Origin: Chondrosia reniformis
Taxonomy: Eukaryota; Porifera; Demospongiae; Chondrillida; Chondrillidae
Direction of reading: 5' to 3'
DNA: 64,000 nucleotides
Assembly (NCBI GenBank): GCA_947172415.1
Contig: OX359199.1
Span: 2,506,001-2,570,000, forward strand
Below, in pieces: positions 6,401-13,400 of this stretch. The notes below the pieces were generated by a model. The model was not told the DNA's origin. It did no database searches and saw nothing but the letters and a program-made list of their open reading frames with translations. Numbering within the stretch: position 1 is the first letter of the stretch; every line of letters starts with the position of its first letter. The position numbers and the translations under genes were made by a program.

Positions 6401-9400
6401 CCAGAGAATTATGTTTATTTTACATGTACATACCTGGTACATTTGGCAGTACAATCCTTTGATCACTTTCCATGGAAACACTTGAATTAGCAAAGCCAAA
6501 ATTGTTTCCTGCGTAAACTCTCACACAATATGTATTCCCGGGTTCCAAGCTGTTTGCAATGAATCTTTGGCTAGATACTGTCCAGCTGTAGTTTTCTGTT
6601 CCACATTCATAGTCATCGCTAATTACCACTTTGTAAAAGGTTATGCCAAAATGAGAGTTAATGTGTCTGTAAGATGGATCCTCCCATGAAACTTGGATTG
6701 ATGTTGAATTAACAACTTTTAGTTGGACATTTTGTACAGGACCAGATGGAACTATATACAAATAAGATAACAAAATTAAAGCCTGTGACAAGTCCAACGG
6801 ATTTCTAAATCACAACACAAATATATAGGATCTATTAGGTATTAAAGTAACATTTATCACTAGTTCAAGTGTGAAATATTAAGTTTACAACACCCCAGAT
6901 ATCACCCGGTTGCCCTGGTAACGTGATATATGTTCCATATACATAACACATACAATTTAATGATAAATATTTATTATGCTCATAATGCATGGATAATTAT
7001 TATATACATTTATATTATTATTATTATTATTATTATTGATTGATTTAAGTGCCTCATGTGCAGTTGCACACTAGGGCTAAATTTGCCCAATGCAGCACTA
7101 TATACCATAAACATTGACACCAGTATATGCATATACACACAGAAACAGTTCTGATTATCACCCCATACAACAGACAGTTATATATGTCTGACAGTGTCTA
7201 TACATCTTCCTCTTAGTCCACTACGTAGCCCCAAACCAGCTCTTTAATCTTTCCAGTCTCCAATAATCATGGTGCCATAGTGATTCCACCTCCACCAATA
7301 ACTTTTCTGAGCTGTTAGGCTCAAACCACCATATATATTTACCGTTCCTTCTCTTGAAAAGTCTTTCTACTTTTACCCCCCTTGCTTTGTCAGTACCAAT
7401 GCAGACACCAATTTCTTTTTGGACCTGATTTACATTTATTAGCCTGCCTGTCCCCCACAACTTCCTAATTCCCTTCTTTCTTCTTTTGCCCTCTGCTGAA
7501 TTCAAAGTGCCAGCAGTCAATACCATTTCCACTTCAGAATCTTTACCAACAAAAGTTCCTTGTTTCTTCATCTCAGTGCTTGTGCTCTCCAGTTTGCCAA
7601 TTAGAGTTCTAATTTCCACACATCTCTCTTCAGTCCTTTGTGTTAATTCACCGATTCTAACTGCCATTTCCTCCTGTAAAGAGCTAAGACTTTCCTGCAC
7701 TTCTGCAGTCGCTTTGCAACTGACCTCGACTCTGTCTAAAAGGGCTTGCCACCGCATCAAAATGTTGGTCGAGCAAAAGAAGCAAAGGAAGTGCACGTCA
7801 TCCTTAGCGACAACCACCTGAGCCACTCGGTAGCAAGAAGGATGCGACCAGCACGTGCAGCCCTCGCAACAAACCCAGTCTCTCTTGTCCCTAGCTGCTG
7901 ACTCTCTGTTCTTCCCGCAAATACGGTTAATAACGTCCGTTTTGCACGGAGTTTTTGCCGACTCTCCCTCCTGCCTTACAACTGCGCTTCCCGTAAAACT
8001 CCCTCTGCGCCTTGGCGTGGGTGTCTCAAGCGCTCCCAAAGCACCTTTATCTAGCAAATTTGCCTGTCTTGCATAATTTACTGGCATTTTACCACCGCAA
8101 CAAATCGACTACTTCTTCTCCAAACGTATCCTAGCAACATATATATGTCTTACATCAACTATGTATGTATATATATACTACATATATACAGTATACCAAA
8201 ATGGCATGAAGCATAAATAAAAAAAATGTTCATATTATGTATAGCTGTGTTGGTGGACTACTTGCTAAATTGCAAATCACTGCAATTAGCATATATTGTT
8301 ACTCAGAGTTTTCCTTCACAATATATATTACGTATATATGTACTCACAAATTGACAGCTGAAGTTAGCAACCACCAAAATATATTATATTTATCATTAAT
8401 TCTAGCCTTATATACATATACGGTATATATTATATATATAACATTTAAACTATTCCTGTACCTGTCCCTTTGGTTGAGGTATAAGAATATCTAGCAGGCC
8501 CTGCTGCAAAGTAGTTAACTACTGTTACTGCTGCTTTGTAGTAACATGATTCTTCCAAATTTGAAAACTTTATCATCCTAGAGCTGCCATTAATGTACTT
8601 AGTTTCCTTAAAGGGTAGTCGGTGATTCAGTGATTGGACTGTTACAATGAAATGAGAAATGTCACAGTTAATTACTGTAGGTGCTTCAAATAGGACTTTA
8701 AAAGAAGTTGATGTTCTCTCTGTAAACTGGATATATCTAGGCTGACCTGGTATACCTACAGATATTTGTATAATATATATTGTGGTGGAATTGATAATAA
8801 AACATCTTTTGCCAGTACAATTTGCAGCTAACCTGGAATACAGCAAACTTCAGCTGTCTTTTTTCTGCAGTTTGAATTGGGCAGTAAAAGAATCTGTTCG
8901 TTTCTATCTGTAAATATTGTCTCTAGAATGGTAATATTAACCTTGTACATTATTCTGTATGCTACTCCTGGGGTCATCACAGGTATACAAAGGGTGTTAA
9001 ATCCTGAAGTTGATTTCAACTGTAGTGACTTAGTAATCAAGTCAGCACTGCCGGTTAATTTAGTGACTACTATTTGAAGATTTTCTGCACTAAGGTTAAC
9101 TCTTGTTTCATGATGAGAGTAGTTATAATTAGAGATTGAATACGATAATGAGATTGCTTGGCATCCGGATGATGATGGATTAATAATGACTGTAATATAT
9201 AGAGAGATAAAGATAACATGAATGTTGCTGGTCCGGTTATTGATTTTTTAGAATGAAAGATTTCCTTTAGAATACTGTCATTGTACTACATGCACGGTAC
9301 ATGTGTTGAACACTTTTAAGCAAACATGTATTATGTATTACGAAGAATACATAGCATGATCCCACGATTCTATACTATATATATACAGGGACTTGTAACC

Positions 9401-10376
9401 AAGAAGGAGACAAAGATTCCCATGGTCACTGAAGAAGGGTGTCATTCCCAGAACCAACTTTCTGGTTCAGTGGAGAAGAAGAAGAAGAAGACTCTATAGA
9501 TCTTGCATCTTCATCCAAAGCTCTAACTAGATTAAGTTCCCATATAACCTTTTACTCCAGAAATTGTAGCATATATATTATATAGAACAAGGTGTTTTAA
9601 ATTATTCATGAGCATGTATATACATATATATGCTTTTTAATGGATCATCCTAATTTTTTGTGTTCTGTTTATATATTATATTTATATAATTAGCTAATGT
9701 CTATATACATAAATATATATATTCTTAAGAGAGAATGAACACATCATTATTTTGAAATATACAGAAAATCAAGTGATGTGTTGTAATATATCTGTCTTAC
9801 CATAGGGTTGAAAAGAGAATTCATATCTCTTACTGTATTGTCCCCACCCCTGAGCTGTTCTGGCCTTTATTCTAATGTACTGTGTATTTCCCATGTAATT
9901 TTTCTCAAAAGAAACTGACAAAAAAGTCATACTACCAGTTGTTACAAAGTACTTTATGTTTGAACCTGCTTGATATTCCAAAGTATAACCTAAGACGTTG
10001 TCCATACCAGATGATTCCCACAAAATGTGCAGAGTTCTAAACAAGGGAACTATAGCTAACACCTTTGGTATCAGAGGAACTACAATTTAAAAGAAAAGTT
10101 GTACTTTTATAAATATTTATATACAACACATAAACATGAAATTAAAACATTTTTAACAGCCAGGTTTCAAAGGGTGCTCCAGTATATATGCACCAACAGA
10201 TTAATTTCATAGGTTTCAAATTAGTTTTCATGAAACTGCCACGTTTTTAAAGTAAGAATGTATGTATATAAAGGCAGACATGGGCAGATGATATGAAACC
10301 TAAAATTTGATATATTTAAACTCATATATATACGTATATATATACCTGTACGTATGTTGTTCATATAACATGATCA

Positions 10377-10417
<41 letters not shown>

Positions 10418-13400
10418 GTTTATTACTCACTTGAAGAGTTGGTAAGAAATGTAACAGTTCCAGCATTAAGTCCAATAGCTATTCCTATGCTATTTCTTGC
10501 TAGGATTCTAACCATATACAAATTGCTGTGTTTTAAATTTAATAGGGTATAACTTGTAATATTGGGCAAATCTATGACAAGTCCATCGTTGATAATAATC
10601 CCGTAGCCTGTTGGTCCGTCTCTGTGGTTAATATCAGTCTCTGTAGGAGGCAACCAAGTGATAGTAGCAGATGTAGAAGACAGGTTTGATACCTGTATAT
10701 TCTGAGGAGGTCCACTTGGAACTATATAGCAAACATTGTATGTAATGTACATACTATTTTGTAGCTATGTGCAATATGTATGAATTATAAATATACCGTA
10801 TAGCGGGAAAATTTGGCAGGTAATATATTCCCGATATTTTAGCATTTGGCGAGTTTTATATTTGGCGGATTGCCTCGTAACTATGATGCAATCGTTGGCA
10901 TAATTTTTTAAATGGACGACGGTACCGTTACGTTCAAAATCGATAGCTGCTTTTGCGAATTTGGCGAAGAATTAAATTTGGCGAACTTTAAATTACTCGC
11001 CTAATCGCCAAATGTAAGTCCTCGCCATATTTCCCACTATACGGTAGCTGTAAGAGATCTATATAGAAATTGCAATCAGATAAAAGGAACTTTCCACATA
11101 CTTAACAATTCTGTTAATTATCATCATTGAACTCTGGATATTACCCCTACCCACTCATGTCCCCTAAGGAATGCAATGAGCAAATGGACAGAACCGAAGT
11201 TCGTTTGATGGGAACCAGAGCCACTCAAAAAATGGTTGAGCCATAGACAGCTGTTTCATCCTTATTAGGACTCATCCGTATGGTATACGATGGAAGTTTT
11301 GAGTGGCTAATCTGCTATTATATAGGTACTCCCAAAAGCAAAAACTTGTGGTTTCCTTATCAGCATATAAGGGGTGCAGCCAAAAGTGTGACTGACCACT
11401 AATACGAAAAAATAGGGGAACTTAAAGATCTACAGCCAATCTTAGAGCATTAATATCATCACTAAATTCTGGATATTAATAATCCCCCTATATAATCCTA
11501 ATAAGGACAAAACAGCTGTATATGGCTCGACCATCTTTTTGAATGGCTAGGGGGAGACTCTGGTTCCCATCAAACAAATTTCGGTTCCGCCCATTTGCTC
11601 ATTGCACTCCTCAGTGGACATGAGTGGGTAGGGGTAATATCCAGTGTTTTCATATTACCAGAATTGGAGAACTTTAAGATCTAAATCTGATCTTAAAGCA
11701 TTGATATCATCATCACTAAACATATTCAAAATGAATTTGGATAAGGTGAAACTTCACTTGAATAATTTTGTTTCCTTTGGCACTGTTGGCACATCATATA
11801 TATATATGTATAAAACTTCATGGCCAGTGTCCAATAAGTGTATTGTGTATAAATATAGTTATTTAATGTGGACGTCCCTAGCTTGAATAGGATTAAAGAA
11901 CGTAATTGTATATACACGTATACGTAAGGATTCACAGAAGATCAAGATAAAGAAAAAGACAAAGACTCCCAGGATCACTGATGAAGGGTGGAATTCCCAG
12001 AAACGGCTGTCTGACCCAGTGGAGAAGAAGATGAAAGAAGGGAAAAGAAGGAAGAAAAGACTCCTGTGTCTTCATCTAAAGCTCTCTTTAGGTTTAGTTC
12101 CCCTATAGGCTCTTTTTACAGAATAGGCATATAGCATGTAGGAAAATGGTATCTTAGATTTTTCATGTGGTTATTAAGTCTTCTATATATACATGTATGT
12201 ATTAGATGATAGGGATTTTTTCTAATTGAGTCAAAGTTATCATCTACATCTTCAAGTCTTTTGATTTTTTATCTTTTGAACCTTTTGAGCGTCAGGATAC
12301 TCAAAAAATTCAAATAATGAATTACCGAAAAGGTAAGTTTGCAACAGTTAGAAAAAAATATTATAGCTATCATTTTACATTCTGTATATTATAGGGTAGT
12401 GAAACCTGTGGTATGTGTATTACATATTATATATACAATAGAGAGAGGGAAGAAGAGGCACTTTAACATGCAGGACAACAAACATAAACATGATGAAAGA
12501 CAAAATTAATTTCTGCATGATATGAAAAGACTCACTTCCTGGTGGGGTTCTAGGGTTCGGACTTGCAAAAACAGCTGGAGATCTTTTACCACTTTCCACA
12601 GCAACCACTGCAACTTTATAAATTACATCCGGTATAAAATTAGAATGACTAAATATTTTTCCAGATATAGTCTTTATCAATACTTGCTGGTGGAAGAGAT
12701 TTTGAGATGTGTATGTCACTTCATATGTTGGTCTTTCTCTGAGATCATTAACAATAACCAGGATACGACGAGAAGAAGTGGGCATTGCACTCACAGATTG
12801 AGGAGGCTCTGCATTTAATGCAAATTGAAAGTGTGAATGGACCATACATTACAAAATTGTGTAACAACAAATGTTTCAACAATTCTATAGATTATAAGAC
12901 ATATAAAACTCTACATAAATACTTATAAAGGTAACCAATTTTAACATATATATAGTGCGGCCTGGTAGCCTTAAATGGCGAGGGCTTAATGCGCCCAGGA
13001 AGTCGGGCTATGTACCTGGGCGGACGGGCTGGTAGCCTTAAGTGGCGATGGTTTATATGTGTCCAGGTATAGCCCTGTGCCCCCTAACCAGAATTGGTTG
13101 GCATTTATCTATGCCTTAATGTACATACATGCATGAGCACTTTAATAATATTAATAATAATAATAATAATACCCATTTAGGTATAAATAAAAGGAATTTC
13201 AATTTATTGTTTCTATAATTTAACAAATGGAACAGTAAAAACTACCTAAAAACTTGTTAGAGCTTGCATTTAAAACAGCTCTTGTGATATATGAAAGAGT
13301 TAATTATTATTGGTGGTTAAACCACTAAATAGCCACCAGTGGGATGATTCCTGGTAACTAAAGCGTTATCTTCCTCTTGTGATACGTGCATGCAAGTGAG

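Follow-up and report, generated by a model that had tools for sequence, protein, structure and literature searches.

A candidate type I hammerhead ribozyme with a non-canonical helix II in the terminal repeats of a Naiad-like Penelope element from the sponge Chondrosia reniformis

The window, a stretch of 64,000 nucleotides of Chondrosia reniformis DNA, contains a fibronectin-III gene on its minus strand. Minus-strand frames match the Pfam family fn3 at about 10426–10721 (E 4.7e-10) and at 8448–8849 (E 4.3e-8), and a frame near 12536–12848 gives a further fn3 match below the cut-off (E 0.019). An intron of this gene (10722–12535) contains two hammerhead repeats, which belong to different families; a third, decayed repeat starting at 9401 lies outside the intron. 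A MITE-like short element at 10794–11046, located between two hammerhead repeats, carries imperfect 36-nt terminal inverted repeats that are 72% complementary. The features are as follows.

9401..9610, plus strand: old decayed copy of the pLTR found at 11926..12168, core lost (CTGAAGA, GAACC), 71% identical
10722..12535, minus strand: intron of the fibronectin-III gene with GTGAGT donor and TATATAG acceptor, ends placed by eye
11130..11648, no strand: retrozyme-like element with inverted repeats, its hammerhead of another family, arms 11130–11220/11558–11648 and 11227–11270/11496–11539
11240..11284, minus strand: decayed canonical type I hammerhead, CGGATGA replacing CTGATGA (RF00163 20.8 bits against a cut-off of 34, E 0.16)
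11926..12168, plus strand: 5'-truncated solo pLTR of a Penelope-like element, corresponding to pLTR positions 40–282 of copy L091 (241/243 identical)
11966..12024, plus strand: hammerhead motif including outer helix I (CTCC/GGAG), read from the sequence and from the comparison of rows
11972..12017, plus strand: type I hammerhead motif with helix I, CTGATGA, helix II with A·A base, GAAA, 2-bp helix III with GGCT loop, and GTC
12011..12012, plus strand: self-cleavage site after GTC, predicted from the sequence

The motif shows the type I order of the core CUGAUGA, GAAA and NUH. A preliminary description had placed all core boxes at 11970–12019 in the order and spacing of a type I hammerhead, with a two-pair helix III and five of six pairs in helix I, and each of these elements was found where it had been claimed. 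Helix I is formed by GGATCA (11972–11977) and TGACCC (12012–12017) with a single A·C mismatch, and is extended by four outer pairs between CTCC (11966–11969) and GGAG (12021–12024), which the preliminary description lacked. The CTGATGA box spans 11978–11984 and the GAAA box 12000–12003. Between them, GGG (11986–11988) and CCC (11996–11998) form the three pairs of helix II, at the base of which A11985 and A11999 (positions 10.1 and 11.1) stay unpaired. Helix III consists of the two pairs AC/GT enclosing GGCT, and the GTC triplet ends at 12011. As previously stated, the motif is situated in an intron, but its strand is opposite to that of the fibronectin-III gene, and consequently the host transcript contains the motif only as its reverse complement. 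The copy at 11926 is a dead-end, 5'-truncated insert, antisense to its host gene.

This copy is 243 bp long, lacks the TATA segment TATATAAGG and, judged by its 241/243 identity to the L091 pLTR, was inserted recently. The degenerate sister copy that had been proposed at 9391–9560 is real and occupies 9401–9610 (158 of 222 columns identical). Likewise, the dispersed nature of the host repeat was confirmed by a search of the Chondrosia reniformis genome (117.4 Mb in 15 contigs, C1, C2 and so on), where the window occupies C11:2506001-2570000; a 201-base query from the repeat gave 1252 first-look candidates, the best 40 of which are all listed as 100% identical over 201 bp. Thirty copies were retrieved, and the 29 that are not the window copy all share a single-base difference from it. 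The core pattern CTGATGA-N(6-34)-GAAAC-N4-GTC matches the genome 2297 times (1140 + 1157) compared with 8 times (5 + 3) for the reversed pattern; as the matches are copies of few repeat families, they represent few independent events. Counted by their flanks alone, at least 2045 copies (1012 + 1033) are present versus 0 for the control, and all listed matches have 0 mismatches even though 3 were allowed. The 3' ends of the copies nearly all coincide at ...GATTTTTCAT; the 5' ends vary, and longer copies extend upstream into a reverse-transcriptase frame.

Full-length relatives bear out the assignment to the Penelope kind made in the preliminary description. The unit in L091 (on C6) consists of a 282-bp pLTR, a GIY-YIG endonuclease, a reverse transcriptase and a second 282-bp pLTR. 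Both pLTRs are 100% identical, in direct orientation, and each contains the motif, which places the two motifs 3496 bp apart. A stop-free copy at C1:4318989-4321736 is bracketed by intact motifs at C1:4318500 and C1:4322001, 3501 bp apart. Moreover, the 150 scored reverse-transcriptase matches include head-to-tail tandem units, with four pairs exactly 3501 bp and one 3502 bp apart. The full unit of about 3.5 kb thus comprises a pLTR, one 997-aa frame in which the GIY-YIG endonuclease precedes the reverse transcriptase, and a pLTR, and it displays the direct pLTRs flanking a coding part and the tandem units by which Penelope-like elements are recognised.

The endonuclease is recognised by Pfam PF01541 above cut-off (E 1.9e-5). 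The reverse transcriptase of copy L002 reaches 27.5 bits with PF00078 (E 3e-6), just below the cut-off of 29.6, and two pieces of L091 searched against Pfam for a reverse transcriptase matched no family; NCBIfam gave only weak reverse-transcriptase matches, far under the cut-off. The motifs GIPMGTDCAP and RYIDD were found by eye in L091, and its putative assignment to the Penelope type rests on these together with the structure of the element. A search for solved relatives by sequence gave none that was convincing for a 564-aa middle piece of L091 (best E 0.38) or a 427-aa reverse-transcriptase piece of L002 (best E 0.066), the best matches being unrelated proteins, and a 133-aa piece had no match among phage records. 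Among the 150 scored reverse-transcriptase matches of 876 candidates, obtained with a C-terminal query, eight lie in stop-free 997-aa frames and one in a 1010-aa frame; one further 997-aa row has a stop inside its match. In 9/9 of the stop-free 997-aa and 1010-aa frames, one of which is the C1 copy bracketed by motifs, a match to the endonuclease query lies 2199 bp further upstream, within a frame of equal length, which makes the endonuclease N-terminal. Between both domains of L091 a CxC motif, PCECHKSPF, was identified by eye. An N-terminal endonuclease followed by a CxC linker is the arrangement of Naiad elements. The genome also holds further GIY-YIG families with about 29–43% identity to this endonuclease (for example at C2:5326137, C6:3935894 and C12:2822700), some of which occur in 550–812-aa frames and inverted pairs and are perhaps further Penelope-like families.

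Apart from the Penelope family, the genome contains canonical hammerheads. The Rfam model RF00163 accounted for 72 matches among the best 73 of 11921 candidates (51 above cut-off, the best with 43.1 bits), and a strict canonical pattern gave 230 versus 0 genome matches. The families seen have GTCC/GGAC or GCCC/GGGC as helix II; the GTCC/GGAC kind resides in direct and inverted repeats of about 354 bp and forms arrays with a spacing of 354–362 bp, for example at C4:3837454-3838563 and C7:2773361-2774115. The element at 11130–11648 was likened to these retrozyme-like loci by its hammerhead segment and inverted arms, and its decayed hammerhead lies about 700 bp from the window motif. The window motif differs from the retrozyme-like motifs in helix I, helix II and loop II. 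The main helix III octamer of the canonical families, the self-complementary ACAGCUGU, is also found in most old Penelope copies, and the octamer of the young Penelope family, ACGGCUGU, is still self-complementary with two G·U pairs.

A 13-bp satellite, CTAGTACATACAA, is present with 3237 + 3234 exact dimers compared with 0 for the reversed sequence; the first 100 listed dimers all fall within C1:3817300-4306591, which is perhaps a centromere. Ten of 30 Penelope loci (L002-L004, L009, L012-L015, L020, L025) are situated in this satellite, as are 9 of 30 RF00163 loci (L050-L054, L056, L058-L060), the latter amounting to only 5 distinct sites. The 30 loci found by the core pattern, 0/30 of which lie in the satellite, all come from C1 0.52–2.38 Mb and for this reason are no fair control, and the satellite words counted were picked after the Penelope flanks had been viewed. 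The common satellite hints at shared targeting of both kinds of loci.

For comparison between copies, 39 older copies were chosen by similarity to the copy at 9401 and not by their core, leaving out the query and a small second fragment; adding both copies from the window and 13 loci found through the core pattern gives 54 rows. Known hammerheads mostly have G–C at positions 10.1–11.1. Here, A·A is found in 52 of the 54 rows and A–T in two, and a base other than the A·A partner at 11.1 occurs in only 13 genome copies with that exact loop and GAAAC-N4-GTC. The A·A mismatch, which had been regarded as the main weakness of the candidate, is therefore present as described, but is a feature of the family rather than a flaw of this copy. 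The covariance search with the type I model suggested at the time did not support the candidate, since RF00163 remained silent at 11970–12019 even at E ≤ 10. Neither the window stretch nor any of the loci L002, L091, L092, L103 and L113 gave a match to the motif family at this threshold, and Rfam at the gathering score found nothing across the window. The minimum-energy fold predicted at the motif is not the hammerhead (z 0.77), which lies 5.9 kcal/mol above the minimum in the young form and 5.4 kcal/mol in the old form. As two canonical hammerhead sequences from the same genome lie 6.6 kcal/mol above their own minima, folding energy does not separate the families and does not decide the matter.

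The whole core is kept in 27 of the 39 older copies and lost in 12. When the majority of the 39 is compared with the window copy, gapped sites excluded, 3 of 46 motif sites are changed compared with 31 of 169 elsewhere (Fisher p 0.067); for the 59-nt version with the outer helix the values are 4 of 59 and 30 of 156 (Fisher p 0.035). Both subfamilies, in their majority forms, retain CTGATGA, GAAA, GTC and the 2-bp helix III. Within helix I, two pairs vary among the 54 rows as T–G, T–A and C–G, and one pair is broken (A·C) in the young subfamily. Conservation spreads slightly past the motif, into AAGACAAAGA and GTGGAGAAGAAG. With p values as marginal as 0.035–0.067, the pattern among copies is consistent with a hammerhead and lends it modest support.

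Considering the number of core matches, the place of the motif in the pLTR and its persistence among copies, a Penelope-like element with N-terminal GIY-YIG endonuclease probably has here an atypical type I hammerhead, which would cut tandem transcripts into unit RNAs. A rather unlikely alternative is a degenerate hammerhead, in which the pLTR stems from an ancestor with an active ribozyme that was silenced by the A·A mismatch, while a different function, such as that of a promoter or a start signal for reverse transcription, maintains the block. Such a history would fit the failure of Rfam to recognise the family at E ≤ 10, the near-constant A·A and the conservation beyond the borders of the motif; in addition, mutations that kill the hammerhead of the Anolis Poseidon element are described, in passages of PMC11167929, as still permitting insertion in vitro. 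Against it stand the core boxes and 2-bp helix III retained in both subfamilies, and an axolotl hammerhead family for which passages of PMC7229834 describe a U·U mismatch at the very base of helix II. The block might instead be conserved as code for a basic peptide, given that a lysine- and arginine-rich open frame runs across the motif (11926–12105, the first 180 bases of the window copy), no stop arises where codons of the young and old forms were compared, and gaps of 6 and 12 nt preserve the frame. This is very improbable, since 12 of the 19 codon changes (gapped codons excluded) are non-synonymous, including 4/4 in the 59-nt block, so that coding does not explain the conservation of the block; moreover, a 1-nt gap near the end breaks the frame, Pfam matches none of it, and in L091 it stops well ahead of the endonuclease.

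We give equally little credence to a chance resemblance within a repeat that was multiplied by copying. The 2000-odd copies do trace to few ancestors and the reversed pattern also finds its 8 matches in the genome, but core, helices, Penelope pLTR position and an AGCT loop that is the main form in the canonical families too are not expected jointly. Least probable of all, and extremely so, is that the repeat in the window is a retrozyme, a non-autonomous hammerhead repeat, even though the same genome harbours tandem repeats of about 354 bp with canonical type I hammerheads and both kinds are found in the same 13-bp satellite. The repeat matches the pLTR of the coding element over its full length, and its motif is unlike the retrozyme-like ones in both helices and the loop named above. 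A non-coding 150–450-bp tandem retrozyme was accordingly rejected as an identification, the repeat being the pLTR of a coding 3.5-kb element, and the retrozyme origin entertained in the preliminary description falls with it, as the local retrozyme-like repeats are other families with a canonical helix II.

If the motif is a hammerhead of the Penelope-like element, transcription would start inside the pLTR, where TATATAAGG lies upstream of the motif, and read-through from the pLTR would yield an RNA with two motifs. Cleavage at GTC could then free a unit RNA of about 3.5 kb holding the whole reading frame, which might be circularised or used as a template. With its self-complementary sequence, the 8-nt helix III would enable a double hammerhead to form between two motifs.

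Minimal type I hammerheads in the pLTRs of Penelope-like elements are said to have been described by Cervera and de la Pena in 2014 and by Lunse et al. in 2017. Craig et al. reportedly stated in the abstract of their 2021 work on Naiad elements with permuted domains that canonical hammerhead motifs are absent. Naiads resemble the sponge element in the N-terminal GIY-YIG domain, the CxC motif between the domains, pLTRs, tandem copies, high copy number and the location of some copies in simple repeats; in contrast to their reported lack of canonical hammerheads, the sponge element appears to have a complete, non-canonical motif. Compared with Penelope hammerheads, the sponge motif differs by its A·A base of helix II. 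According to passages of PMC7761336, Penelope hammerheads share with it the pLTR position, the tandem arrangement, a weak helix III and possibly action as dimers, but most of them are described without helix III, whereas the sponge motif has two pairs and a tetraloop. The nearest tested case is Anolis Poseidon, in which the endonuclease is C-terminal and not N-terminal as in the sponge element, and whose hammerhead, in passages of PMC11167929, cuts only with protein added and is dispensable for insertion in vitro. Passages of PMC7229834 report that amphibian type I hammerheads require dimers for good cutting. The metazoan non-LTR retrozymes treated there likewise have type I hammerheads in repeats, in genomes that also possess Penelope-like elements, but they are short and non-coding, occur in tandem and have canonical hammerheads, and in the sponge such repeats form separate families. 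A non-exhaustive search found, among the titles listed, no earlier report of hammerheads in sponge animals; the words sponge, Porifera and Amphimedon have 0 mentions in the passages of PMC7229834, and sponge has 0 in passages of PMC6155905.

The site is in itself unremarkable, being a dead pLTR fragment; the Penelope element it comes from is Naiad-like and has what reads as a complete, non-canonical hammerhead motif at high copy number. More broadly, it is possible, although we would lean against it, that Naiad-type elements carry hammerheads which were overlooked because descriptors require G–C at 10.1–11.1; the A·A form, at about 2000 sponge copies, occurs beside retrozyme-like repeats that share its octamer and some satellite sites and that may ride on its enzyme. 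If the sponge motif cleaves, the range of working hammerheads would extend to those with an A·A mismatch at the helix II base. Hammerheads would then also reach a branch of Penelope elements not known to have them, placing the ribozyme earlier in Penelope history. Finally, autonomous copies free of stops exist side by side with retrozyme-like repeats in this small sponge genome, so that it could be tested here whether Penelope elements move retrozymes, as has been proposed.
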